Source: an uncultured Bacteroidales bacterium
GTDB lineage: Bacteria; Bacteroidota; Bacteroidia; Bacteroidales; UBA4417
DNA: 34,910 nt
NCBI GenBank assembly: GCA_903913645.1
Contig: CAIWMA010000405.1
Span: forward strand, 1-34,910
Direction of reading: 5' to 3'
The notes below the pieces were generated by a model. It made no database searches. It was not told where the DNA came from and saw only the letters and a program-made list of their open reading frames with translations. Each line of letters opens with the position of its first letter. Position 1 is the first letter of the stretch. Below, one piece after another: positions 14,119-29,033 of the stretch. The position numbers and the translations under genes were made by a program.

Positions 14119-14619
14119 GTTGTTAAGAGTAGTAAATAAAATTAGGATTGGCTTTTCTAAAGTACGTTTCACCTGCTTAAACAAGCATAGATGCTAATTT
14201 TCAATCATTGCAGTAAATTTACTTTACGCACTATGTAGAAAAAAGCCTTCAATCTTTCCTTAAAACCAGACTCTCTCTTTTTCAGAATCTGACTTGGGGA
14301 AATCGAAAAGACAGCAAATCAACGCACTCAACCAAAACCTGTTATGATTCCACAAGGTTTTCAAGTTATTGCAAAGATAAATAATTTCCATGAAGGAAAA
14401 AATGTTTACGAATGAAACTACTTCAATCCGATACTAACTTCGTGTAGCTGAATATAGAAATTCGATTAATTTGCAGTTTCAGACCTATTGTTTGATACCT
14501 TTTTCGGTTTTCAATTGGTAAAACAAGAAACACAGCCTGAACACATTTATAAATTTTACGACACCTTTGCAATTACTATATTTCCAATTAATAATTCACT
14601 TCACATATAAAAAGGTTTA

Positions 14620-14627
14620 TACATTTG
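14620..14627 (+). promoter_or_regulatory. Bacteroidetes-type -7 promoter motif (TACATTTG) upstream of the proline dehydrogenase gene
   Basis: Matches TAnnTTTG and lies about 20 bp before the ATG at 14647. No clear -33 TTG was seen. Confidence 0.5.
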
Positions 14628-14646
14628 CACCTTTAAAATAATTTAT

Positions 14647-15813
14647 ATGCTTTCATTCGACAATACTGAAACAGCGTTTCGCTACAAAAGCAACTCCGAC
14701 CTGACACGGGCACGTATTCTTTTCAGTACTCTTGCAAATCCGGAACTTGTTAAAGTTGGAAAATCGCTCACATATTTTGCATTAAATCTGCATCTGCCTA
14801 TTGCCTGGGCCATCAAGCCTACACTTTATAAGCACTTTGTTGGAGGCGAAACCCTGGATGAATGCGAAAAAACTGTACAATTGCTTAGTAAGTTTAATGT
14901 TAAATCCATTCTGGATTATTCGGTTGAAGGAGGCAAGGACCATGAAACCATGCAGCGCACGCTTGAAGAAACGCTTCGATCGGTTATTAATGCTGCCAGC
15001 CACCCGGAAATTCCATTCTCGGTATTTAAGCCTACTGCTTTTGCTTCTCAGCAAGTGTTGACGCTTGCTTCTGAAAATGCTCCGGTTAATGAAGAAACTG
15101 CCAAAGCTATCCAATTCTTTAAGGACTGCGTCGAAATTCTATCAAAAACTGCTTTCGAAAATGGTATTCCTATCATGATTGATGCCGAAGACTCATGGTA
15201 TCAGCCATTTGTTGACCAGGTGGTAACCGAAATGATGGAGAAATATAACAAAAACAGCGCTATTGTATATAATACATTGCAAATGTACAGGACCGACCGG
15301 CTCTACTTTTTGAAAGAATCGCTCCGAAAAGCTGAAGAAGGCAATTATTACCTTGGAATTAAATTCGTACGTGGAGCTTATATGGAAAAAGAACGTTTGC
15401 GTGCTGCCGAAAAAGGATATCCCTCGCCTATTCAGCCTGATAAAGAGGCTACCGACCAGAATTATGATGCAGGCATTGCTTATACACTTGAGCATCTGGA
15501 CAGAATTTCAGTTTTTAACGGGTCGCATAATGAGAAAAGCAACCGTTTGCTCACTGAACTCATGGCAAAAAAAGGTCTTGAGCGCAATGAAAAGAAAATA
15601 TGGTTTTCGCAACTTTATGGAATGAGCGATCATATCAGTTTTAACCTGGCAGACGAAGGCTACAACGTTACCAAATATATTCCCTATGGCCCGGTTCGTA
15701 ATATTTTACCATACCTGATCCGGCGAGCCGAAGAAAACACTTCTATAGCAGGTCAGACAGGCCGTGAACTCGGGTTGCTTGAGCAGGAGCGGTTACGCAG
15801 AAAAAAGGGATAA
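14647..15813 (+). CDS. Proline dehydrogenase family protein
   Basis: 388 aa with an FAD/PRODH TIM-barrel: SVFKPTAFAS, IMIDAEDSWYQP, VYNTLQMYRTDRLYFLKESLRKA, GIKFVRGAYMEKERLRA, FSQLYGMSDHISFNLADEGYNVTKYIPYGPVRNILPYLIRRAEENTS. Confidence 0.94.
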   Translation: MLSFDNTETAFRYKSNSDLTRARILFSTLANPELVKVGKSLTYFALNLHLPIAWAIKPTLYKHFVGGETLDECEKTVQLLSKFNVKSILDYSVEGGKDHETMQRTLEETLRSVINAASHPEIPFSVFKPTAFASQQVLTLASENAPVNEETAKAIQFFKDCVEILSKTAFENGIPIMIDAEDSWYQPFVDQVVTEMMEKYNKNSAIVYNTLQMYRTDRLYFLKESLRKAEEGNYYLGIKFVRGAYMEKERLRAAEKGYPSPIQPDKEATDQNYDAGIAYTLEHLDRISVFNGSHNEKSNRLLTELMAKKGLERNEKKIWFSQLYGMSDHISFNLADEGYNVTKYIPYGPVRNILPYLIRRAEENTSIAGQTGRELGLLEQERLRRKKG

Positions 15814-15836
15814 AACAAGATGAATACTAATCGATG

Positions 15837-15863
15837 AAGCCACAATTTGTAACATTGTGGCTT
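15837..15863 (+). terminator. Rho-independent terminator downstream of the proline dehydrogenase gene
   Basis: AAGCCACAAT ttgtaac ATTGTGGCTT followed by TTTTTTTA: perfect 10-bp arms plus T-tract. Confidence 0.9.
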
Positions 15864-15993
15864 TTTTTTATGACCCTATTTTTCAGTAAGCCGGGCTAAA
15901 TATTCATTTTTTAATGGTTTTATCCATTTCAATCGGAAATAGTTTAATTTTATCCGCACTTGGGTCCAGATAAGACCAGCACATTTTATTGAG

Positions 15994-18843
15994 ATGAAAA
16001 ACGCAGTTTCCCTGTTTATCACATCACTATTCGTATTTCTTACAAATGCATTTACTGTAGCTCAATCGTCGTGCCTCGTAACCCACTACAGCCGCAGCCA
16101 ATATGCTGCTGGTAGTCAGAATTGGTCCTTAGCAATGGATAAGCAGGGATTTGTATATGCAGCCAATAATAAAGGGCTTATGAAATATGATGGTGTTCGC
16201 TGGAGAATATTTCCAATGCCCGCACGTAAAATTGCCCGTTCAGTTTCGATAGGTAATGACGAAAAGATTTATACCGGGGCCATCGAGGAATTTGGATATT
16301 GGACCAAGGATGCAGCAAAAGGATTAACATATACATCGCTGGTTCCGCTTTTAAAAAATGTTGATCTTCATAATCACGAAATTTGGAAAATAGTACAGTC
16401 ACAAAACAAAGTCTATTTCCAGGGATTTTCATGCTTGTTTGTTTATGACAAACACACTGTAAAACCAATTAAACTGCCGGGTTCAATAGTTTTTCTTCTG
16501 AAAGCCGGTGAGCGCCTGTTTGCCCATGCCGTAAAAGGCGACTTATATGAAGTTATTGACGACAAACTTGTCAAAATCGACCAGGGCAAAATGCTTTACG
16601 GAACAGAAGTTAAAGCCATACTACCATACAAAGACGGATCTTTCCTGATTGGCACTTCTTCAAAAGGCGTTTTTATTTTCGACAAAAACGGAATTACTCC
16701 CTGGAATGTACCCGCAAATCCTTTACTCAAAGAGTTTCAGATTAACAATGGAATAATCTTTGGCAACAAAATTGTTTTCGGCACAATTGTTAAAGGCCTG
16801 TTTATTCTTGATTTTGAAGGCAATCTTTTAAATCATTTATATAGTGATAATGACCTACAAAACAATACTGTCCTTTCCCTTTGCAACGATAATAATCAAA
16901 GCATCTGGGTTGGTCTCGATAACGGAATTGACAATGTTTCATTTAACAATCCTGTTGATATTTATCCCAGTCATAATGAAGCATTGGGTACCGTATATAC
17001 GGCAGCACTCCAGGCAAACATGCTTTATGTAGGAACTAACCGCGGTGTTTTCACATATATAAAGGATGGAAACAGGTTTACATACAATGGATTTCTACAA
17101 AATTCGCAGGGACAGGTCTGGCAACTCAAAGTTATTGATGGAACCTTATTCTGTGGCCACACAAACGGAACGTACATTATTGAGAAAAATACGTTGAAAC
17201 CAATTTTCAATGTCAGCGGTGGCTATATGTTGCAAAAGTTGCTGATCAGAGGTAAGGAGTATCTTCTACAAAGTACCTACAGCAGTTTGGTTATCTATAA
17301 AAAGGCAGGAAATACATGGGTCTACAGTCACCAGGTGGAGGGATTTATGGAACCGGCCAGGTTTGTAGAAGTTGATCACCTGGGTAATATCTGGGTTGGC
17401 CATTCCGTGAAAGGGCTGTACAGGCTGCGGTTATCGGATTCTCTTGACAGAGTATCTGAAAAGCAGCTATTTACAGAAAAAGAAGGGCTTCCTTCCAACA
17501 CGAATATAAAAGTTTTTAAAATTGCAGACCGGGTAATATTTTCCAATGCTGAAAGTCTTTTTACCTGGGACGACCTGCGGCAGAAAATAATTCCTTATAC
17601 CGATCTTAACAGTAAACTTCAGGGCTTTGAATCGTCAGTTTCAATAACTCCGATTGATGAAAAAAGTTACTGGTTTGCCACCAGAAATGAGGCTGCGATT
17701 TTTAATTTTAAAGATAACATGCCAGTAATGTCATATCGCCTGATTTTCAACCAGTTTAATCTTTCCCTTGTTGATAATTACGAAAATCTGGTTCCACTTA
17801 CCGGGAATCTTCACCTGATTTGCCTTGACAATGGATTTGCCATTTTCAATAAGGATGTTGTTTCCCAGTCAAGGTCCAATGAATCCAAGCTTGTGATCAG
17901 GGAAATTGTATGCAGGGATGCTTCCGGAAATATTCTTGATCTGGATCCATCAGGAAATCCGGTTTCACTGCGGAATGCCTATAATAATATTTCAATTTCA
18001 TACTCTACACTTCAAAACCCGTGTTCACGCAAACTCTATCAATTTAAACTTGATGGTATCGACAGGGAATGGAGCAGGTGGTCCGAATCAGCCGAGGCAA
18101 AATATACCCGTTTACCAGTTGGGGAATATAAATTTAATGTGCGTACTTTAACTTCGAATGGGACAATTACACAAGCAGTCACGCTGAAATTCAAGGTGAG
18201 GCCGGCCTGGTATGCATCCATAGCAGCCATGCTGCTGTATATTCTGATAGGATTGGGCGGAATATTAGTAAGTCAGTATTTTTACCGCAAAAGGCTTGCA
18301 AAACACCATAACCGCCTTCATCTGATTGCAGATGATAAACGGAAAGCAGAGAAATTAAAATCTGAGCAAGAGATTATGAAACTTCAGAATGAAAAACTCC
18401 AGTCCGAAATATCGCATAAAAACATGCAGCTTGCAGACTCAACTTTATCGATTATCAAGAAAAATGAAGTGCTCATTGAAATCAAAAATGAACTAGAGAA
18501 ACAAAAGGAAGATCTCGGGGCACGCTATCCAGCACGTTATCTGCAGCGGTTAACAACACTGATCGATAAGAATATATCAAACGATAACGACTGGGAAATG
18601 TTTGAGGCACTGTTCGACCAAGCGCACGAAAACTTCTTCAAGCGGCTGAAACAATCTTTTCCCGACCTCACTCAAAGCGATCTGAAACTTTGCGCTTACC
18701 TGAAACTGAACCTTTCTTCCAAAGAAATTGCCCCTTTGCTTAATATTTCGATTCGAGGGGTTGAAATCCGAAGGTACAGGCTCAGGAAAAGGCTCTCACT
18801 TACCTCAGATAATAACCTGGTGGAATATATTATGCAGTTCTAA
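15994..18843 (+). CDS. Membrane-spanning beta-propeller / triple-tyrosine (Y_Y_Y) sensor with a C-terminal LuxR-type HTH and no histidine kinase domain
   Basis: Signal peptide. Propeller repeats (GIDNVSFNNPVDIYPSHNEALGTVYTAALQANMLYVGTNRGVF...). Y_Y_Y domain (LQNPCSRKLYQFKLDGIDREWSRWSESAEAKYTRLPVGEYKFNVRT). Transmembrane segment WYASIAAMLLYILIGLGGILVSQYF, a coiled coil, then LTQSDLKLCAYLKLNLSSKEIAPLLNISIRGVEIRRYRLRKRL (HTH). Confidence 0.87.
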   Translation: MKNAVSLFITSLFVFLTNAFTVAQSSCLVTHYSRSQYAAGSQNWSLAMDKQGFVYAANNKGLMKYDGVRWRIFPMPARKIARSVSIGNDEKIYTGAIEEFGYWTKDAAKGLTYTSLVPLLKNVDLHNHEIWKIVQSQNKVYFQGFSCLFVYDKHTVKPIKLPGSIVFLLKAGERLFAHAVKGDLYEVIDDKLVKIDQGKMLYGTEVKAILPYKDGSFLIGTSSKGVFIFDKNGITPWNVPANPLLKEFQINNGIIFGNKIVFGTIVKGLFILDFEGNLLNHLYSDNDLQNNTVLSLCNDNNQSIWVGLDNGIDNVSFNNPVDIYPSHNEALGTVYTAALQANMLYVGTNRGVFTYIKDGNRFTYNGFLQNSQGQVWQLKVIDGTLFCGHTNGTYIIEKNTLKPIFNVSGGYMLQKLLIRGKEYLLQSTYSSLVIYKKAGNTWVYSHQVEGFMEPARFVEVDHLGNIWVGHSVKGLYRLRLSDSLDRVSEKQLFTEKEGLPSNTNIKVFKIADRVIFSNAESLFTWDDLRQKIIPYTDLNSKLQGFESSVSITPIDEKSYWFATRNEAAIFNFKDNMPVMSYRLIFNQFNLSLVDNYENLVPLTGNLHLICLDNGFAIFNKDVVSQSRSNESKLVIREIVCRDASGNILDLDPSGNPVSLRNAYNNISISYSTLQNPCSRKLYQFKLDGIDREWSRWSESAEAKYTRLPVGEYKFNVRTLTSNGTITQAVTLKFKVRPAWYASIAAMLLYILIGLGGILVSQYFYRKRLAKHHNRLHLIADDKRKAEKLKSEQEIMKLQNEKLQSEISHKNMQLADSTLSIIKKNEVLIEIKNELEKQKEDLGARYPARYLQRLTTLIDKNISNDNDWEMFEALFDQAHENFFKRLKQSFPDLTQSDLKLCAYLKLNLSSKEIAPLLNISIRGVEIRRYRLRKRLSLTSDNNLVEYIMQF

Positions 18844-19302
18844 AACTTCGTTTTGAATTCAACTCGAACTCTTTGCTGGTTTTAAATACAGCAACTTTAT
18901 TATAAAAACTGCTAAACATTAAATATAGAATACCTGAAACTGATTTTTTACAGCCAAACTTTATGATATTTATTCCTCATATATTTGTAATTCACCACAT
19001 CATACAGCATTTTATATAAAATATAATTTCACAAAACTAAATTCCCATATAACTGTTAATCTATTAATTACATATCTTAGTATTGCAATTGATGTAATGA
19101 TGTATAGGATGTTGTTTAATGCTTCATATCGATGTAGTAATCATGATGAATCTTTTTAACACCCATCATCAACAAATAACCTTTTTATTTGTATTTTTAA
19201 AACTGGAACAATCGATTGCGGGAATGCCTAAAATCTGCTTATTTCTTAACCAACCATAAATCGAATCTTCAACCAAACCTAATTCTAATTAATCTTTATG
19301 TT

Positions 19303-22300
19303 ATGAAAAAATCACTACCTCTAAAGCGGGTTATTCCCTGGGCAAAAGGATTATTACTGCTTCTGATGTTTTCGTTATTGAATACATCAGTTTTTGGACA
19401 GGGACGAACTATTTCCGGAGTTGTAACCGATCAGCTAACAAAAGAAACACTGCCCGGAGCTTCGGTAATCATTAAAGGAACAACTACAGGCACTTCCACT
19501 GATATTAACGGGAAATATTCGCTAACGGTTTCCGGTGCCGACAAATTTCTAGAGGTATCCTTCATAGGATACAACCCAACAGAAGTTGCTGTAGGAGCTG
19601 CAAATGTGATTGATATTCAGTTATCAATGAAACTCACAACTCTGGATGAAGTTGTAGTTGTAGGATACGGTTCGAGTAAAGTAAAGGATCTAACCTCTTC
19701 TATTACAACTATCAAATCAGGCGATCTTCTCAAAACGCCATCGAGCCAACCCATGAATGCGTTGCAGGGAAAAGTAGCCGGTCTACAGGTTGTTGCCAAC
19801 GGAGGTCCGGGCAATTCCTCAACCATTCGTATACGTGGTATAGGTTCGTTTCCAGGAAGAGAAAATGAAGCACCACTGTATGTGGTTGACGGAGTATTCT
19901 TCGATAATATCGATTTCCTGAACCCGGCAGACATTGCATCGATTTCTGTCCTTAAGGATGCTTCGGCCGCTGCTATTTATGGTGTACGTGCTGCAAATGG
20001 TGTTGTACTTATCGAAACAAAATCGGGAGCTTACAACCAAAAAACCGAGATTACCTACGATGGTTATATGGGTTACCAGGTTGCCCAGAATGTTCAGAAA
20101 ATGGCCAATTCTGCCCAATTTACACAAATGGCATTAGAATCCGGATCAGCTGCTGATGTTGCATATATAAACAATGCCATGCAGCGCTATGGACGTAGCC
20201 GTGTAAACCCGAATGTTCCGAATGTGAACACAGATTGGTATAAAGAAATCCTTCGCCCCGCGCAGATTCAGAACCATAGCCTTGGTTTTGATGGTGGTAA
20301 CGAAAAAGCCAAATACTCATTAGGCGTGAATTATTTCAACCAGCAAGGTATTCTGAATATGAAAAATGAGTACGAACGATTGAACCTTCGTGCTAAAGTT
20401 GATTTAAAAGCGACAAGCTGGCTTACAGTCGGCGGCAATTTTATAATCAGTAATGCAAATAAATACAATGAGCAGGCCGGTGCATGGAACCAGGCTTATT
20501 TTGCAGTTCCTATTCTGCCTGTTTACGACTCTCTAAACATTGGAGCAACGCCAACGGATTATGCAAATGCACAGGACCTTGGTTACAGGGCAGGCCAGAA
20601 TCCTTTTCCTACTATGCAATACAACGAGAGTTTCTTGAAAATCAAGAAAATGCTTGCCAATATGTACATGGAGTTCACCCTGATACCAAAAGTGCTGACC
20701 TTCAAAACTACATATAACAACAATTTCACTTCAGTTAACCAAAGAGATGTCAACCTGCCATACAACCTGGGACACGATTTCAAAAATCTTAACTCTCAGA
20801 TATCTAAAAGTTCATCGATCAACGTTAACCAGACCTGGGATAATATCCTGACATTAATTGAAAAATTCAATAAGCATAATGTAACCTTAATGGCAGGATC
20901 ATCCTATAAAATTGAAGATTTCCAAGGGCTGTACGGTTATGGACAGAATTTCGATCCGAATATTCAGCAATCCTGGTATATAAGTCAATCAACGGCTAAA
21001 ATATTAAATAATGCCTCTGACGGCGGAAGCCTTCAGTATGGGATGTCGTATTTCGGAAGATTAGCTTATAACTATGCTGATAAATATTTATTATATGCTA
21101 CCATGCGTGCTGACGGAAGTTCGAAGTACCAGGAGAAATGGGGATATTTTCCGACTGTTGGTGCAGGCTGGGTAATTTCGGAGGAAAGTTTCCTGAAAAA
21201 CAACGAATATGTTCCATACCTGAAATTACGTGCCAGTTGGGGACAACTCGGTAACGACCATATACAAGCCAGCGACGGTACCAGAACAACACTGCTTACC
21301 GAAATTGCCATGGGAGGCACTGCCACAACCCCAGGCATCGTATTTCCAGGAACATTGGCACCAAATTCCTATTCATCACTTAAGTGGGAATTGACTGAGG
21401 AAACCAATATCGGCCTAACTGCACGATTCCTTAAAGACAGGTTATCTCTCGATTTTGACTATTATATACGTGATACAAAAAATGCAGCTATACCGGTTGC
21501 ACTTCCTGGAGTGGGAACAAGTATTCTGAAACCAGTAGGTACCATCCGGAATAAAGGTATTGAACTCGCACTTACATGGTCAGATAAGATTACGGATAAA
21601 CTCAGCTACAATATAGGTGCAAATATGTCGACACTGAAAAACTCAGCGATTGACCTTTACGGGCAACCATACATTAACGGAGGACAGGCTGAATTCCTGC
21701 AACGCACATACCTTAATGAACCTCTGATGTCTTTCTACGGATATCAAACTATTGGCGTTTACCAAAATGCTGCTGAAATTCTGGCAGATCCTGTTGCAAC
21801 CAAATATCACATGACACATCCAACCGAATATTTAGTGCCTGGAGATTTTAGGTTTAATGACGTAAATGGAGATAGTGTGATTGATGGCAGTGATCGCGGA
21901 ATACTAGGATCCTATTTCCCTACATTCATTTATGGGGCTAATATTTCATTAACTTATATGAATTTTGACTTTTCGGCCAGCATGTACGGGCAAACCGGTA
22001 ATAAAATCCTGAACCGTAAGCGTGGCGAAGTGATCTGGACCAACGATGAAAACATGGACGCCAACCTTGCAGATAACCGCTGGCACGGTGAAGGCACTTC
22101 CAACACCTATCCTTCTTCTGCCGGATTAAGAAAACCGTGGAACCAGGTAATGAGTAATTATTTTGTTGAAGACGGATCATTTTTCCGTATCCAGAATATT
22201 CAGATTGGTTACACAATTAAAAACAAACAATGGTTAGGAGGAAATTTCCCTGTATGCAGGATTGCTTTTACTGCCGACCGTCCGTTAACCATTTTCAAAT

Positions 22301-22395
22301 ATAATGGTTTTACGCCTGAGATATCTGATGGTATAGATTCGCAAACCTACCCGGTTCCTGCCGTTTACACAGTTGGACTAAATGTTAAATTCTAA
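19303..22395 (+). CDS. SusC/RagA family TonB-linked outer membrane protein
   Basis: Signal peptide MKKSLPLKRVIPWAKGLLLLLMFSLLNTSVFGQ, carboxypeptidase-regulatory-like domain (ISGVVTDQLTKETLPGASVIIKGTTTGTSTDINGKYSL), plug (LDEVVVVGYGSSKVKDLTSSI...IRIRGIGSFPG...PLYVVDGVFFDNI...ISVLKDASAAAIYGVRAANGVVLIETK). The ORF-track start at 19216 is probably 29 codons too early. Confidence 0.96.
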   Translation: MKKSLPLKRVIPWAKGLLLLLMFSLLNTSVFGQGRTISGVVTDQLTKETLPGASVIIKGTTTGTSTDINGKYSLTVSGADKFLEVSFIGYNPTEVAVGAANVIDIQLSMKLTTLDEVVVVGYGSSKVKDLTSSITTIKSGDLLKTPSSQPMNALQGKVAGLQVVANGGPGNSSTIRIRGIGSFPGRENEAPLYVVDGVFFDNIDFLNPADIASISVLKDASAAAIYGVRAANGVVLIETKSGAYNQKTEITYDGYMGYQVAQNVQKMANSAQFTQMALESGSAADVAYINNAMQRYGRSRVNPNVPNVNTDWYKEILRPAQIQNHSLGFDGGNEKAKYSLGVNYFNQQGILNMKNEYERLNLRAKVDLKATSWLTVGGNFIISNANKYNEQAGAWNQAYFAVPILPVYDSLNIGATPTDYANAQDLGYRAGQNPFPTMQYNESFLKIKKMLANMYMEFTLIPKVLTFKTTYNNNFTSVNQRDVNLPYNLGHDFKNLNSQISKSSSINVNQTWDNILTLIEKFNKHNVTLMAGSSYKIEDFQGLYGYGQNFDPNIQQSWYISQSTAKILNNASDGGSLQYGMSYFGRLAYNYADKYLLYATMRADGSSKYQEKWGYFPTVGAGWVISEESFLKNNEYVPYLKLRASWGQLGNDHIQASDGTRTTLLTEIAMGGTATTPGIVFPGTLAPNSYSSLKWELTEETNIGLTARFLKDRLSLDFDYYIRDTKNAAIPVALPGVGTSILKPVGTIRNKGIELALTWSDKITDKLSYNIGANMSTLKNSAIDLYGQPYINGGQAEFLQRTYLNEPLMSFYGYQTIGVYQNAAEILADPVATKYHMTHPTEYLVPGDFRFNDVNGDSVIDGSDRGILGSYFPTFIYGANISLTYMNFDFSASMYGQTGNKILNRKRGEVIWTNDENMDANLADNRWHGEGTSNTYPSSAGLRKPWNQVMSNYFVEDGSFFRIQNIQIGYTIKNKQWLGGNFPVCRIAFTADRPLTIFKYNGFTPEISDGIDSQTYPVPAVYTVGLNVKF

Positions 22396-22408
22396 AACAC
22401 AAGGAAAT

Positions 22409-23965
22409 ATGAAACGTACAAAATATATTATACCGTTCGCTATAATAATAGTTGCAATGTTCTTTGCAGCAAGTTGTAGTAAGAATCTGGATGTACTTCC
22501 CGAAAACCGGACATTTACCGCCGAAACCGATTATACTAAAACCAGCGATATGATCAACCCTTTGTTGGGAGTATATGCCGGAATGTCAGTAACTGATGGA
22601 GAATGGGAAGACTTCCCGATTATCGGAGTCCGTGGTGATGATGTAAATGCAGGAGGTGGAAGTGACCAGCCGGATTTAGCAGCAACAGATAAATACAATT
22701 ACAACAGGACTTTCTGGGCATTAAATACTTTCTGGGAGGCTTATTACCAGCATCTCTTCGCTAGCCAGTCGGCAATGGAACAGATAGCGCTTTTCAAAGC
22801 AAAGATCAGTTCCGGTAATACCGAAGCGCTTGCCAGAGCCGATCAGTATACCGCTGAGGTAAAAGTTCTGGAAGCATGGTGGTTACTACAGGTAAGTCGT
22901 GTATGGGGTCCCATATTCATTCCAACCAGTTCCGATCCTGCATCATTGTTTGTTACACCATTATCATCAAAAGATGAAGTAATGAAGCGTATTTCGGATT
23001 TAATGGATGAGGCTTCTCCTTTACTTCCGGCAATAAGGCCAAATGAACGGACGGATATACCGGGTGGAGTAACGAAATACACTGCTTTAGCCTTGAAAGC
23101 CCTGGCTAACCTGGAACTCAAGAATTATGACGGCGTTGCTGCAGCAACTGGCGAAATAATAAATTCTAATAAATTTATTCTTGAACCTGATTTCTATCAG
23201 CTTTTCAAACTTAAAGGGAAGTTGAATAATGAAAACCTGCTGGAGAAACAATATTCAGACCTTGGCACAAACGCTAATCCTAAGTTTTATTATAAATTTG
23301 AATTTTTCGGACCACAGAGTTGGACGCCAAAACTAGCAACCGCAGGTGGTGGATGGGGTTTTTACGAACCGAGTTTGAAATACATCAAGTTTATGCTCGA
23401 CAGGGGAGATACGCTTCGGTTGAAAACCACTGTTATCTTTACGCCCAGGGGCATTGCTGAAATCGAGAAAGATGCCTCTTACACACCAAAAATGGCAGGC
23501 ATAACAAATGTTTCCCGTTCAGGAGATATATTTATTGATTTTGACCGTGAAATGTTTTTAAGTGGCAAGCATTACCTGCCTTCCGATCAGCTCACTTCAG
23601 GCCAGACTACTTATGGAACCAATAAGAACTTCTCCTGCATCAGGTATGCACAAATCCTGCTGATGTACGCTGAAGCACTTACACAGGGAGCTACCGGTAG
23701 CGCCGGAACTGCTGATAATGCTGTAAACCTGGTAAGAGCCAGAGCAGGATTGACGGCGATCACAGGAGTTACAAATGACCAGGTAATGGATGAAAAATTT
23801 GCAGAACTTGCCACCGAATGGGGCGATCGTTTTTATGATATGGTCAGGCTTGGTAAAACAGCTGAACTGAGCTACGAAGGAAGAATATTCACAATGGATA
23901 AAACTTTCCTTCCTTATCCCGAAAACCAGGTTAGTATACTTCCTGCTTTATCAGTTAAAAAGTAA
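22409..23965 (+). CDS. RagB/SusD family nutrient uptake outer membrane lipoprotein
   Basis: MKRTKYIIPFAIIIVAMFFAASCSKNLDVLPENRTF (lipobox), directly downstream of SusC. C-terminal SusD features: IRYAQILLMYAEALTQ...AVNLVRARAGL...DEKFAELATEWGDRFYDMVRLGKT. Confidence 0.95.
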   Translation: MKRTKYIIPFAIIIVAMFFAASCSKNLDVLPENRTFTAETDYTKTSDMINPLLGVYAGMSVTDGEWEDFPIIGVRGDDVNAGGGSDQPDLAATDKYNYNRTFWALNTFWEAYYQHLFASQSAMEQIALFKAKISSGNTEALARADQYTAEVKVLEAWWLLQVSRVWGPIFIPTSSDPASLFVTPLSSKDEVMKRISDLMDEASPLLPAIRPNERTDIPGGVTKYTALALKALANLELKNYDGVAAATGEIINSNKFILEPDFYQLFKLKGKLNNENLLEKQYSDLGTNANPKFYYKFEFFGPQSWTPKLATAGGGWGFYEPSLKYIKFMLDRGDTLRLKTTVIFTPRGIAEIEKDASYTPKMAGITNVSRSGDIFIDFDREMFLSGKHYLPSDQLTSGQTTYGTNKNFSCIRYAQILLMYAEALTQGATGSAGTADNAVNLVRARAGLTAITGVTNDQVMDEKFAELATEWGDRFYDMVRLGKTAELSYEGRIFTMDKTFLPYPENQVSILPALSVKK

Positions 23966-23995: not shown

Positions 23996-25099
23996 ATGAA
24001 AATACTTAGATACGTACTCATAGGTTCACTTGCGATGGTTTTCGCTGTCGCCTGTAATAAAGGCATCGACCCGATCTCTTACGTTGATCCGGGCCCTGAT
24101 ACTGCTGCTCCCAAAATAACAATCAGTTACCCCATCGAAGGTACTAAGATCAGGGTAGATGAGCCTGTTACTTCCATCAATATTAAATTTGTAGCATCTG
24201 ATGAAATAGAGATAAAATCCATTTCCCTGAAACTCGATGGAGCTGAAATTGCTACCTTTAATAGTTTTAAGGATTACCGCCGCTACATGGGAGAATTCCA
24301 ATATGATAACATTACGAATGGTGACCATGCGCTTTCTATTACAGTAACCGACCTTTCGGATAAATCAACATCACAGACAGTTAATTTCAAGAAAATTGCT
24401 CCCTATGTACCACTTGATGGAGAAGTAGTGTATATACCTTTTGATGGTGATTATTTTGAACTGGTAGGCAAGAAAGAAGTTACGGTTGCAGGTTTACCTG
24501 GTTTTGTTGACGGTAAAATCGGTCAAGCCTATGCAGGGGCTTTAGATGCCGGCATAACATATCCGGCACCAGCCTCCCTGATGGCCAGCAGCGAGTTCAG
24601 TTTGTCATTCTGGTACAAATTGAATGGCATACCAAAAAGAGGAGGAATTATATCCATTAGTCGTCCGAACACAGGTACAGCAACAACTTCACCTCCGGAT
24701 AGTACCCGTTTTAAAGGATTCAGGTTTTTCCATGAAGATAACGGCAAGAATGAAAACCTTGGTATTGATATAGGAATTGGCAAGGCAGAACAATGGATGA
24801 ACCCGTTTATTACTCTCAAACCAACAGTTGCAGGTGACTTTGGTGACTGGATTCATATTGCAATCTCCATATCAAGCACAAAAGCTATCGTTTATGTGAA
24901 TGGTGTTTCTAAAATGACAGCCAATTTAAAAACACCTATTAACTGGACTGATTGCTCACTGATCTCAATCGCTTCAGGTGTTCCCAACTTTATTTACTGG
25001 GGCCATTTATCCGACTTGAGTTTGTACGATGAACTGCATATCTTCAAAAAAGCTATTACCCCCGAAGAGGTCACAGCTTTGTATGGTGTAAAAAAATAA
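23996..25099 (+). CDS. LamG/concanavalin A-like domain surface lipoprotein with an N-terminal Ig-like domain, in the surface-glycan-binding-protein position
   Basis: Lipobox LAMVFAVACNKG. Ig-like DTAAPKITISYPIEGTKIRVDEPVTSINIKFVASDEI. LamG-like GEVVYIPFDGDYFELVGK...SSEFSLSFWYKLNG...GDWIHIAISISSTKAIVYVNGV...LSDLSLYDELHIFKKAITPEEVTALY. Confidence 0.88.
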   Translation: MKILRYVLIGSLAMVFAVACNKGIDPISYVDPGPDTAAPKITISYPIEGTKIRVDEPVTSINIKFVASDEIEIKSISLKLDGAEIATFNSFKDYRRYMGEFQYDNITNGDHALSITVTDLSDKSTSQTVNFKKIAPYVPLDGEVVYIPFDGDYFELVGKKEVTVAGLPGFVDGKIGQAYAGALDAGITYPAPASLMASSEFSLSFWYKLNGIPKRGGIISISRPNTGTATTSPPDSTRFKGFRFFHEDNGKNENLGIDIGIGKAEQWMNPFITLKPTVAGDFGDWIHIAISISSTKAIVYVNGVSKMTANLKTPINWTDCSLISIASGVPNFIYWGHLSDLSLYDELHIFKKAITPEEVTALYGVKK

Positions 25100-25299: not shown

Positions 25300-26925
25300 A
25301 TGAAAAAATATCTGGTGTGCATAGCTATTTTAATACTGACTGTACAAATTGTATCCGGACAATCCAAACCAGGTAACCTACAGTCTATCAGTTCTGAAGA
25401 CTTAAAAGATAAGATAGCCGGGGGATGGGCCGGGAAGATGATAGGTGTAACGTATGGTGGGCCAACGGAATACTCTTTTCGAAAAGCAATTAATGACGCT
25501 CCCATAAAATGGACACCCGCTGATCTGGCCGGAAGTAACACCCAGGATGATCTTTATGTGCAGCTTTCGCTTATTATGGCGATGGATAAATATGGAATTG
25601 GTGTTTCGGCTAAAAATCTTCAGGAACAAATAGCAAAAGCTGGTTTCACAATGTGGGCTGCCAATTTACAGGCCCGGAAGAACTACTTTAATGGCATTTA
25701 TCCGCCTGAATCGGGCAGCCCAAAATACAATTACAGAGCCGATGACATCGACTTCCAGATTGAATCGGATTTTATCGGCTTTATGAATCCGGGGATGATA
25801 CAGAATTGTATTGAAATCTCCTGTAAAGTCGGGCACATCATGAATTATGGCGATGGCGTTTACGGCGGAACTTTTGTTTCAGCCATGCAAAGTGCTGCCT
25901 TTTTTCAAAACGATATGGAAAAAATAGTTGAAACTGGTTTGACAGCCATTCCAAAAGAAAGCAACTATTCGAAAATTATCCGTGATGTTTTACTGCTTCA
26001 TAAGTACTATCCCAACGACTGGAAAGCCGCATGGAAGGAATTAGATGACAAATGGAGTGAGATAGATGTGAGCGGAGCCAGCATAGATTTTAATTTTGAC
26101 GCTACACTGAATGGAGCTTATATTGTTATGGGTTTGTTGTATGGCGATGGCGATGTAATGAAGACTATCGACATTTCAACCCGCTGCGGGCAAGATTCGG
26201 ATTGTAATCCGGCAAATGCTATGGCCATTCTGGGAGTAGTAAAAGGGTTTAGTAATTTACCAAAGGAAATGACAACCGAGATCAGGAAAATAGAAGATTC
26301 CACTTTCTCACACACTACTTATTCCTTTAAAACCATGGTGGAAAGCACCTATAATTATGCTATCCAATACATTAAAAGGAATGGAGGTACTATCAAAGAT
26401 AACGAAATTAAAATTCCTGTTCAAAGTATTAGGTTTAAAAAAACCGAAGTTTCTTTCCCGAACGTAGTGTATGATACAGTTGTGTCTGCATTTTCAAAAG
26501 AAAGATGGCAATTCAAAGGAAATTGGCAGGTTTGGCAGGTTCCTCATTGGGAAAAAGATCATGCACCAATCGACCAGTCCATATATGCCAGTAAGGCCGG
26601 TGACCAGGTTGAATTTACATTCAATGGTTCCGGTATTGCTCTGTATGGAAATATTTTTAAATACGGAGGAAAGGCGGATTTTTATGTTGATGGGAAACCA
26701 GATCAAACAATAGACACGTATTATAATTATTGCAACCAGGAACCGCTTGATATTTGTATCTGGCATGTATTTCAGTTAAAACCTGGTAATCACACAATAA
26801 AAATAATAGTAAAAGGAGAAAAACGCTTAGAATCAGCCGGGACAAATATTTGCATTACCCGAGCTTTTGTATACAAAACAGCTCAAAAGAAAAATGAATC
26901 CTTTATGTTTTCGTTTCAAAAATAA
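25300..26925 (+). CDS. Exported ADP-ribosylglycohydrolase (ARH/DraG) fold protein with a C-terminal beta-sandwich, carbohydrate-binding-like domain
   Basis: Signal peptide MKKYLVCIAILILTVQIVSGQ. ARH-like motifs DKIAGGWAGKMIGVTYGGPTEY, SNTQDDLYVQLSLIMAM, GDGVYGGTFVSAMQSAAF, RCGQDSDCNPANAMAILGVVKGF. C-terminal VEFTFNGSGIALYGNIFKYGGKADFYVDGKPDQTIDTY...HTIKIIVKGEK. Confidence 0.85.
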   Translation: MKKYLVCIAILILTVQIVSGQSKPGNLQSISSEDLKDKIAGGWAGKMIGVTYGGPTEYSFRKAINDAPIKWTPADLAGSNTQDDLYVQLSLIMAMDKYGIGVSAKNLQEQIAKAGFTMWAANLQARKNYFNGIYPPESGSPKYNYRADDIDFQIESDFIGFMNPGMIQNCIEISCKVGHIMNYGDGVYGGTFVSAMQSAAFFQNDMEKIVETGLTAIPKESNYSKIIRDVLLLHKYYPNDWKAAWKELDDKWSEIDVSGASIDFNFDATLNGAYIVMGLLYGDGDVMKTIDISTRCGQDSDCNPANAMAILGVVKGFSNLPKEMTTEIRKIEDSTFSHTTYSFKTMVESTYNYAIQYIKRNGGTIKDNEIKIPVQSIRFKKTEVSFPNVVYDTVVSAFSKERWQFKGNWQVWQVPHWEKDHAPIDQSIYASKAGDQVEFTFNGSGIALYGNIFKYGGKADFYVDGKPDQTIDTYYNYCNQEPLDICIWHVFQLKPGNHTIKIIVKGEKRLESAGTNICITRAFVYKTAQKKNESFMFSFQK

Positions 26926-27068: not shown

Positions 27069-29033
27069 ATGAAGAAATCTGCTTCAATTTTAATTCCGGT
27101 ATTAATACTTTTATTCTTTACCGTTTCGTGTAAAAAAGATCCTGCTTTTGTGATCGGAACTATGCAATTGGCAAGTTGTACGGTTGGCGATGCTCAATTG
27201 ACGAATGGAGTAGTTACTAATAATGTACCAATAAATCAACCTGTTGTATTAAATTTTTCCGAATCTGTAGATTCAACCCTTGTAAAGGCAAACATTTACC
27301 TGAAAGACAATACGGGCAACACTGTACCCATGGTATATTTCTCGTATGCCGATACGTATCATACCGTTTTCTTAAAACATAATGCAAGCTTACAGAAGCT
27401 TCAACAATATACCCTGGTTGTTTCAAAGTCACTTAAAGGCAAAAACAGTGAGACTTTTAATGGTGCTGAATATCAATTTATAACTTCCGATGCTTCTGTC
27501 ACACTAAAGAAGATTACGATTGATGATCAGAATTTCATGACTCCTTCGGTAGTAGGTATGGTGCCTGTTACAGGGGCAGTATTTTCGGTTGAATTCTCAC
27601 TTCCTATTGACACAGTGCAGGTTAAATCCAAATTTACACTCGACGGATCTGCAAAATTCATTATAACATTCAGTTCCGATTTGAAATCAGCAACTATGGT
27701 GTATCCGGATAAATTAGCCAACTTAACAAAATACACATTCTCGATTTCTTCAAATTTAAAAGCAACCAATGGATATACTTTTGCCGGATTCAGTAATGTT
27801 CTTACTACAGCGACTATCCCACTCTCCGATGATGAATTACTGACCGTGGTTCAGCGCCAGACCTTTAAATACTTTTACGACTATGCCCACCCTACCAGCG
27901 GCATGGCACGCGAACGTTCAGGCTCCGGCAATACGGTTACTACCGGTGGATCCGGATTTGGTGTGATGGCTTTAATTGTGGGCATGGAACGTGGTTTTAT
28001 TACCCGTAGCCAGGGAATTACCCAGCTCACCAAAATAATATCTTTCCTCGAAACTGCCGACCGGTTTCATGGAGCGTGGTCGCACTGGATTGATGGAAGC
28101 ACAGGTAAAGTAATTCCTTTTGGTGATAATGATAATGGTGGCGACCTGGTAGAGACAGCTTTTATGGCACAGGGACTTATTGCTATGCGCCAGTACCTTA
28201 ATTCTTCAACACCAGCTGAAAAAGCACTGATTGACAGAATTACAAATATGTACAATGGAATTGAATGGGATTGGTACAGGCAAAACGGACAAAATGTACT
28301 TTACTGGCATTGGTCACCGGATAAAAACTGGATAATGAATATGCCTATAAGGGGATACGATGAAGCACTAATTGTGTATGTACTAGCTTCCTCATCAACA
28401 CAGCATACGATCCCAAAAATAGTTTATGATGCAGGTTGGGCCGGCAATGGAAGTATAAAAAACGGAAAAACATTTTATGGCTATACATTACCCGTCGGAT
28501 ACGATTTGGGCGGACCTTTATTTTTTGCCCATTATTCATTCCTTGGACTCGATCCCCGAAAATTATCAGATGCCTATGCAAATTACTGGACGCAAAATGT
28601 GAATCATTCGCTGATTAACTGGCAATATTGTGTTTCAAATCCTAAAAAATATCCGAATTACAGCGCATCGTGTTGGGGGCTTACAGCCTGCGACCTTCCG
28701 GCACCCGATTATTATGGAGCTTGTGAACCCAGCAACGACAAGGGAACTATTGCTCCTACAGCTGCTGTATCATCACTTCCTTACACTCCAGTACAATCAA
28801 TGAATGCCATCCGGTATTTTTACTATAATGTTGGTGATCATTTATGGGGCGACTACGGATTTCATGATTCATTTGATGTTCAGGAAAGCTGGTGGGCTGA
28901 TTCATACCTAGCTATTGACCAGGGACCCGAAGTTGTAATGATTGAAAACTATCGCACTCAACTGATTTGGAAATTATTTATGTCAGCTCCGGAAGTTCAG
29001 GCTGGTTTGACGAAATTAGGTTTCAGCTATTAG
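27069..29033 (+). CDS. Glycoamylase-like / GH144-type lipoprotein with two N-terminal Ig-like domains
   Basis: Lipobox FFTVSCKKDP. Ig-like INQPVVLNFSESVDSTLVKANIYLKDN and a second Ig-like repeat. Catalytic-like region VQRQTFKYFYDYAHPTSGMARERS...GGDLVETAFMAQGLIAMRQYL...GYDEALIVYVLASSS...SCWGLTACDLPAPDYYGACEPSNDKGTIAPTAAVSSLPYTP...SWWADSYLAIDQGPEVVMIENYRTQLIWKLFM. Confidence 0.86.
   Translation: MKKSASILIPVLILLFFTVSCKKDPAFVIGTMQLASCTVGDAQLTNGVVTNNVPINQPVVLNFSESVDSTLVKANIYLKDNTGNTVPMVYFSYADTYHTVFLKHNASLQKLQQYTLVVSKSLKGKNSETFNGAEYQFITSDASVTLKKITIDDQNFMTPSVVGMVPVTGAVFSVEFSLPIDTVQVKSKFTLDGSAKFIITFSSDLKSATMVYPDKLANLTKYTFSISSNLKATNGYTFAGFSNVLTTATIPLSDDELLTVVQRQTFKYFYDYAHPTSGMARERSGSGNTVTTGGSGFGVMALIVGMERGFITRSQGITQLTKIISFLETADRFHGAWSHWIDGSTGKVIPFGDNDNGGDLVETAFMAQGLIAMRQYLNSSTPAEKALIDRITNMYNGIEWDWYRQNGQNVLYWHWSPDKNWIMNMPIRGYDEALIVYVLASSSTQHTIPKIVYDAGWAGNGSIKNGKTFYGYTLPVGYDLGGPLFFAHYSFLGLDPRKLSDAYANYWTQNVNHSLINWQYCVSNPKKYPNYSASCWGLTACDLPAPDYYGACEPSNDKGTIAPTAAVSSLPYTPVQSMNAIRYFYYNVGDHLWGDYGFHDSFDVQESWWADSYLAIDQGPEVVMIENYRTQLIWKLFMSAPEVQAGLTKLGFSY

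Follow-up and report, generated by a model that had tools for sequence, protein, structure and literature searches.

An exported ADP-ribosylglycohydrolase-fold protein in a predicted beta-1,2-glucan utilisation locus of an uncultured Bacteroidales bacterium, with close relatives in ribose operons

Enzymes with the ADP-ribosylglycohydrolase (ARH) fold hold the 2- and 3-hydroxyls of ribose through two divalent metals carried on pairs of aspartates, a carboxylate assisting hydrolysis at C1, and all the characterised ones known to us act on ADP-ribosyl bonds. The occurrence of a gene for an exported protein of this fold within a polysaccharide utilisation locus (PUL) of an uncultured Bacteroidales bacterium raises the question of what such a protein would cleave, and where. 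The gene, P0001, lies on the stretch of DNA that was analysed here in full (hereafter the window; 34,910 nucleotides), a single 34.9-kb contig (C405) of a 5.7-Mb genome assembled in 593 contigs. Its near relatives are likewise found on public contigs of uncultured Bacteroidetes/Bacteroidales MAGs.

P0001 occupies positions 25300..26925 of the forward strand, on which all the window features described below also lie, and encodes a protein of 541 amino acids, recognised through its open reading frame, the PF03747 profile, AlphaFold2 and Foldseek. The reading frame is real. Read by eye, its N-terminus, MKKYLVCIAILILTVQIVSGQS, is a signal peptide of type I that has no lipobox cysteine (approximately residues 1-20, ending at IVSG before QS; 25300..25359), as claimed in an earlier reading made from the sequence alone (the sequence-only reading). 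A lipobox could be seen by eye in the tandem paralogue of P0001 in relatives, and nearly all family members have either a signal peptide or a lipobox by the same inspection, so that the family departs from the cytosolic location of classical ARHs. Among P0001 orthologues pN is ~0.12 and pS 0.66-0.77, and the window pair with finite dS gives a dN/dS of ~0.08, indicating purifying selection. Since relatives at 77-80% identity have the same type of locus and dN/dS is this low, the locus is not a product of chance; a pseudogene or artefact is ruled out by the open frame together with the dN/dS.

The ADP_ribosyl_GH domain spans residues 41-323 (25420..26268; PF03747, E 4.3e-27), the match scoring 95.9 bits (cut-off 26.2) and covering positions 1-287 of the 287 of the profile, which places the protein within the superfamily. 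An AlphaFold2 model built on a 28-sequence alignment (pLDDT 91.3, pTM 0.90) has the all-helical ARH fold, and its best PDB matches in Foldseek include ARH3, Tri1 and DraG near the top and ARH1 lower down, the match to ARH3 (6hh3) having an E-value of 8.5e-7 and a TM-score by target of 0.69. A single-sequence phmmer search of P0001 against the PDB returned no ARH match, while the profile and fold searches did. At the C-terminus the AlphaFold2 strands form a beta-sandwich resembling a carbohydrate-binding module (CBM; approximately residues 389-527, 26464..26880), matched in Foldseek to BT_2959 (3nqh), xanthan lyase (6f2p) and CBM36 (7ay3), and weakly by the CE2_N profile. Both the ARH/DraG-like fold and the CBM-like sandwich had been claimed beforehand, and the structural comparison with DraG, ARH1, ARH3 and CBMs then suggested for them recovered all of these; that P0001 combines the ARH fold with export we regard as practically certain.

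The gene lies in a PUL headed by a beta-propeller/Y_Y_Y regulator with a LuxR-like C-terminus (15994..18843), recognised by profiles and found in the same place in relatives. This regulator has no histidine kinase and looks LuxR/sigma-like at its end, unlike classical hybrid two-component systems. It is followed by profile matches to a SusC-like TonB-dependent transporter (19216..22395), a SusD-like lipoprotein (22382..23965) and a LamG/Big_7 surface lipoprotein (23996..25099). Downstream of P0001 lie two GH144 genes, P0006, of endo-beta-1,2-glucanase type (27069..29033; 504 bits to 5gzh), and P0007 (29137..30534; 361 bits to 8xul), closest to the beta-1,2-glucanase XcSGL (XCC2207), an enzyme classed as GH144 (PMC12102758); profile and structure-sequence matches thus agree on the SusC/SusD/LamG and paired GH144 neighbours that the sequence-only reading had listed. 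They are followed by P0008 (30566..33757; 1063 aa) and by an MFS_2 (GPH) sugar symporter recognised by profile and cut by the contig end (33804..34910). P0008, a core gene of the beta-1,2-glucan PUL, carries N-terminal CBM-like domains and an all-helical, weakly GH15-like C-terminal part; it has no Pfam catalytic match, its structure model is poor (pLDDT 61), and it is possibly an undescribed enzyme.

A reference locus from the same genus (G408, in which L175 and then L072 are contiguous) shares part of this order, reading regulator, SusC, SusD, LamG, GH144, GH144, P0008 and MFS, and continues with GH35, SOGP, a canonical clade-A ARH at L072 8735-10357, GH43 and GH3. The window keeps this gene order except that P0001 stands between LamG and the first GH144 gene. 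The SOGP of the reference locus scores 591 bits against 1,2-beta-oligoglucan phosphorylase (5h3z) and its GH35 499 bits against beta-1,2-glucosyltransferase (7vkw); with the two GH144 genes of the window and the SOGP, GH35 and GH3 of the reference, the PUL around P0001 is, on gene content, one that targets beta-1,2-glucan. In the genome under study a canonical ARH, GH43 and GH3 are found on contig C455 (L070), which, judging from the contig ends, is probably the continuation of the window PUL. Some PULs of the same type, such as L180, had no ARH in the stretch read.

The homologue tree resolves into two sister clades. Clade A (support 100/100) comprises P0001, its 77-82% identical orthologues and a broader group at ~47-56%; clade B is ~35-40% identical overall. 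Few genomes (G000, G405, G400 and L007) were found to carry P0001 or one of its close orthologues, and in L007 and L008 the P0001-type copy stands in tandem with a canonical ARH. Six PF03747 matches occur in the window's own genome, some of them belonging to a three-ARH operon whose pieces lie on contigs C261 and C29. Elsewhere in clade A the neighbours are GH27, or GH127/GH16/GH30/GH3, or GH29/GH38/GH2. Several genes of both clades are solitary, with no glycan link, and six or so clade-A loci and many of clade B have neither ribose nor glycan neighbours; the link of homologues to glycan loci that the sequence-only reading wished to see scored is therefore frequent and not universal, a number of relatives being solitary.

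The residues on which an ARH active site would depend are retained throughout the family. E57 (25468..25470), D83 and D84 of the SNTQDD motif (residues 79-84, 25534..25551), N271, and D299 and D301 of GQDSDC (residues 297-302, 26188..26205) are invariant in 57/57 sequences of the homologue alignment, as expected from the paired acidic residues noted earlier, and give P0001 the DD and DxD pairs of the PF03747 superfamily. In profile alignment E57 falls on the MPTE glutamate of MJ1187, the first aspartate pair on its TDD and the second on its GGDTDS; all three also fall on the matching motifs of DraG and Tri1, in the aligned parts only. The four aspartates are presumed metal ligands, and E57 presumably falls near E41 of ARH3. 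The sequence-only reading had rightly described GGDTDT as altered to GQDSDC, but the alteration is not peculiar to P0001: in the two-clade set 49/50 sequences have Cys at position 302 and 50/50 have Asn at 303, and QDDL with GQDSDC replaces the threonine-bearing TDDT and GGDTDT family-wide, the last Thr of GGDTDT being variable in Tri1 and MJ1187 as well. With the acidic residues of the motifs invariant in 57/57, GQDSDC is the family norm, and in the alignment the threonine changes leave these residues in place. Two further motifs set the family apart: RADDIDFQIESDF (residues 146-158, 25735..25773), at whose position clade members other than the P0001 type have HADDID, and GHIMNYGDG (residues 178-186, 25831..25857). 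The family-specific motifs HADDIDFQIEADF and GHIMNYGDG are common to both clades, and neither HADDID nor GHIMNYGDG was seen in the DraG, Tri1 and MJ1187 segments aligned in this partial profile alignment.

The clearest clue to the substrate comes from the gene neighbourhoods of relatives. A ribokinase or permease gene occurs in 31 of the 54 clade-B loci (52 genome loci and two annotated records), over retrieved stretches of mostly 20 kb, and in 3/21 clade-A loci. These figures are counts and not independent events, as locus length varied and related genomes contributed many of the loci. Neither gene was present in any of six beta-1,2-glucan PUL loci that had been retrieved by way of a different gene. 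A first sample, with 0/12 in clade A, had suggested that the ribose link was confined to clade B; the wider sample yielded the three clade-A cases, and the clades differ in frequency. In these three (L107, L109 and L111) the ARHs are 53-56% identical to P0001 and stand in a compact operon of ribokinase (above the TIGR02152 cut-off), nucleoside hydrolase, ARH and a Ureide_permease/Sugar_transport-type permease; in L109 an additional unassigned gene follows the ribokinase. Two of the three loci also have a regulator of the BT2802 ribose-utilisation family, the matches running along nearly the whole profile at 411 and 416 bits, under the cut-off of 550; none was found in L111. Three annotated plasmid records, the best-matching of the search and picked blind to neighbours, show comparable orders: rbsK-ARH-nucleoside hydrolase-GRP transporter in Parabacteroides distasonis, rbsK-(unannotated ARH match)-GRP transporter in Spirosoma, and rbsK-GRP-ARH-SusD-SusC in Flammeovirga. 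The Spirosoma match (L183, 8001-8957) has no gene entry in the record table, which is incomplete, and because it extends over no more than query residues 1-307 a broken gene is possible.

A larger operon of rus type in relatives runs, in order, ribokinase (TIGR02152 in the L082-type operon), SusC, SusD, three different exported ARH-fold proteins (~660, 545 and 525 aa), two tandem PF00756 esterases and a permease; the regulator of L082 is of the BT2802 family (NF058569, 650 bits, above cut-off). This arrangement is conserved over many Bacteroidales (L080, L082-L086, L090, L122, L123, L127-L129, and C261/C29 of the window's own genome, which has a ribokinase and pieces of the regulator) and suggests an esterified, ribose-containing nutrient. 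Elsewhere, DUF4434 proteins directly adjoin clade-B ARH genes in L117 and L144, twice in the latter. An Ensifer plasmid (L184, NZ_CP070354.1) has two adjacent ADP-ribosylglycohydrolase genes, ~31% identical to P0001 over the domain, in a carbohydrate ABC transporter operon, and similar proteins occur on many Ensifer/Rhizobium plasmids.

Since close relatives sit in ribose-scavenging gene sets, P0001 probably removes a ribose-like sugar from a glycan used as a nutrient, and the intact acidic residues together with the ribose operon partners of relatives make hydrolysis of terminal ribofuranosyl or pentofuranosyl groups outside the cytosol the best reading. Action on a glycoside, as opposed to ADP-ribosylated protein, is likely; the direction of the earlier proposal is supported in this respect, but the best indication of the substrate lies in the ribose operons of relatives and not in the glucan locus. 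For the canonical members a ribosyl target seems reasonably probable, and for the window copy it is a somewhat doubtful one. The fuller account, to which we give an even chance, is that P0001 is an exported ARH-fold glycosidase from a ribose-releasing lineage that was recruited to beta-1,2-glucan PULs.

Judged by operon partners, the ancestral role of the family would have been the release of D-ribose from ribosides, the sugar being imported and phosphorylated by an RbsU-type permease and a ribokinase; one lineage would then have been recruited to beta-1,2-glucan loci, where P0001 would represent an extra, diverged paralogue. P0001 is probably metal-dependent, and from the ARH fold we infer a catalytic scheme in which two divalent metals held by D83, D84, D299 and D301 would bind the cis-diol of a furanose, a carboxylate, with E57 as the candidate, would activate the leaving group or a water molecule, and hydrolysis would take place in the periplasm at the C1 glycosidic bond by which a ribofuranosyl or similar pentofuranosyl group is attached terminally, the C-terminal beta-sandwich holding the glycan. 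The freed pentose would pass to a separate ribose system of the genome and the glucan core to GH144, GH3, SOGP and GH35. Ribose genes are not adjacent to P0001, ribokinase, RbsU-type permease and BT2802-family regulator being absent from the window, and ribokinase is absent from the beta-1,2-glucan loci. We know of no ribosylated beta-1,2-glucan; on this scheme some such decoration would be expected.

By sequence comparison the window copy is itself a divergent extra paralogue. When P0001 and its L008 orthologue were set against 18 other clade-A proteins, they were found to differ by six substitutions (W81T, H120A, H146R, C258S, I266F and K269T), the first-named residue being present in 17-18 of the 18; His at 120 and 146 also occurs in the clade-B examples shown. 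Given these losses and the low dN/dS, the copy has been maintained and is probably altered in specificity, and the loss of W81, H120, H146 and K269 may mean that it acts on another substrate than the ribose-operon enzymes do. A switch to another furanoside or glycoside (arabinofuranosyl, galactofuranosyl, apiosyl, or a beta-1,2-glucan linkage) would agree with the loss of these four residues and of C258 under strong purifying selection while the metal-motif residues were kept, and with the canonical clade-A paralogue and GH43 in the same PUL type, beside which a second copy of the same specificity would be redundant. Nothing, however, points positively to one particular other sugar, and we consider such a switch rather unlikely.

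The family might instead have kept the classical chemistry and changed compartment alone, cleaving ADP-ribosyl (or NAD- or nucleotide-derived) compounds outside the cytosol as a source of ribose or nucleotides. The nucleoside hydrolases among the operon partners and the retention of all ARH metal-site acidic residues speak for this, as does L107, in which a type I phosphodiesterase/nucleotide pyrophosphatase (14457-16121) lies ~1 kb downstream of the clade-A rus operon and would fit nucleotide or NAD scavenging. A glycan sugar nevertheless fits better with the presence of clade A in GH144/SOGP PULs and in the other glycoside hydrolase settings listed above, and neither the C-terminal CBM-like domain nor the motifs HADDID and GHIMNYGDG, not seen in the aligned segments of DraG, Tri1 and MJ1187, favour this alternative, which we judge unlikely. 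That the window copy descends from an enzyme but serves, without catalysis, to bind glycans or as a scaffold, as the loss of several clade-conserved residues and the CBM-like domain could suggest, is very improbable with E57, N271, the QDSDCNP block and every acidic residue of the metal motifs intact.

Should hydrolysis of ribofuranosyl or related groups by the exported proteins prove correct, a secreted ARH branch freeing ribose or related furanoses would bring a metal-dependent mechanism into glycan degradation, many Bacteroidota proteins annotated as 'ADP-ribosylglycohydrolase' would be nutrient enzymes rather than signalling enzymes, and an undescribed decoration on beta-1,2-glucans would be indicated. 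The boldest form of the proposal, to which we attach a modest chance, joins three claims: that the exported proteins of the ARH fold form a novel class of metal-dependent ribofuranosidases and a future glycoside hydrolase family, that beta-1,2-glucans are naturally ribosylated or pentofuranosylated, and that the window copy is a second-generation enzyme of new specificity. The presence of canonical and diverged paralogues in one PUL type makes the change of specificity directly testable.

In comparison with ARH3, DraG, ARH1 and Tri1, P0001 has the same fold, a full-length PF03747 domain, the DD and DxD pairs and the N-terminal Glu, at ~11-13% identity. Unlike them it is exported and carries a C-terminal beta-sandwich, with Gln in place of the first Thr of TDDT and Cys in place of the last of DTDT, and its family has the signature motifs HADDID and GHIMNYGDG and glycan or ribose genes as operon partners. 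Closer counterparts are the ARHs of rus operons, Glowacki et al. having reportedly noted ADP-ribosylglycohydrolases in rus variants (Cell Host Microbe, 2020). The P. distasonis protein WP_005858072.1 is 39-40% identical to P0001 over most of its length and shares its acidic key residues and both signature motifs; the rus-operon ARHs, however, adjoin ribokinase, nucleoside hydrolase and GRP transporter, whereas the neighbourhood of P0001 is a beta-1,2-glucan PUL, and P0001 no longer has the W/H/H/K residues. In the open literature searched we found no ADP-ribosylglycohydrolase linked to polysaccharide utilisation or CAZymes, nor the recruitment to beta-1,2-glucan PULs, the clade shared with ribose-operon enzymes or the diverged duplicate, and a word search of two papers on beta-1,2-glucan gene clusters gave no mention of an ADP-ribosyl protein (PMC8861115, PMC12102758). 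The clusters described there comprise GH144, SOGP, GH35 IaSGT and GH3 (PMC8861115, PMC12102758); the window-type PUL has the same enzyme set and adds to it one or two ARH-fold genes and GH43.
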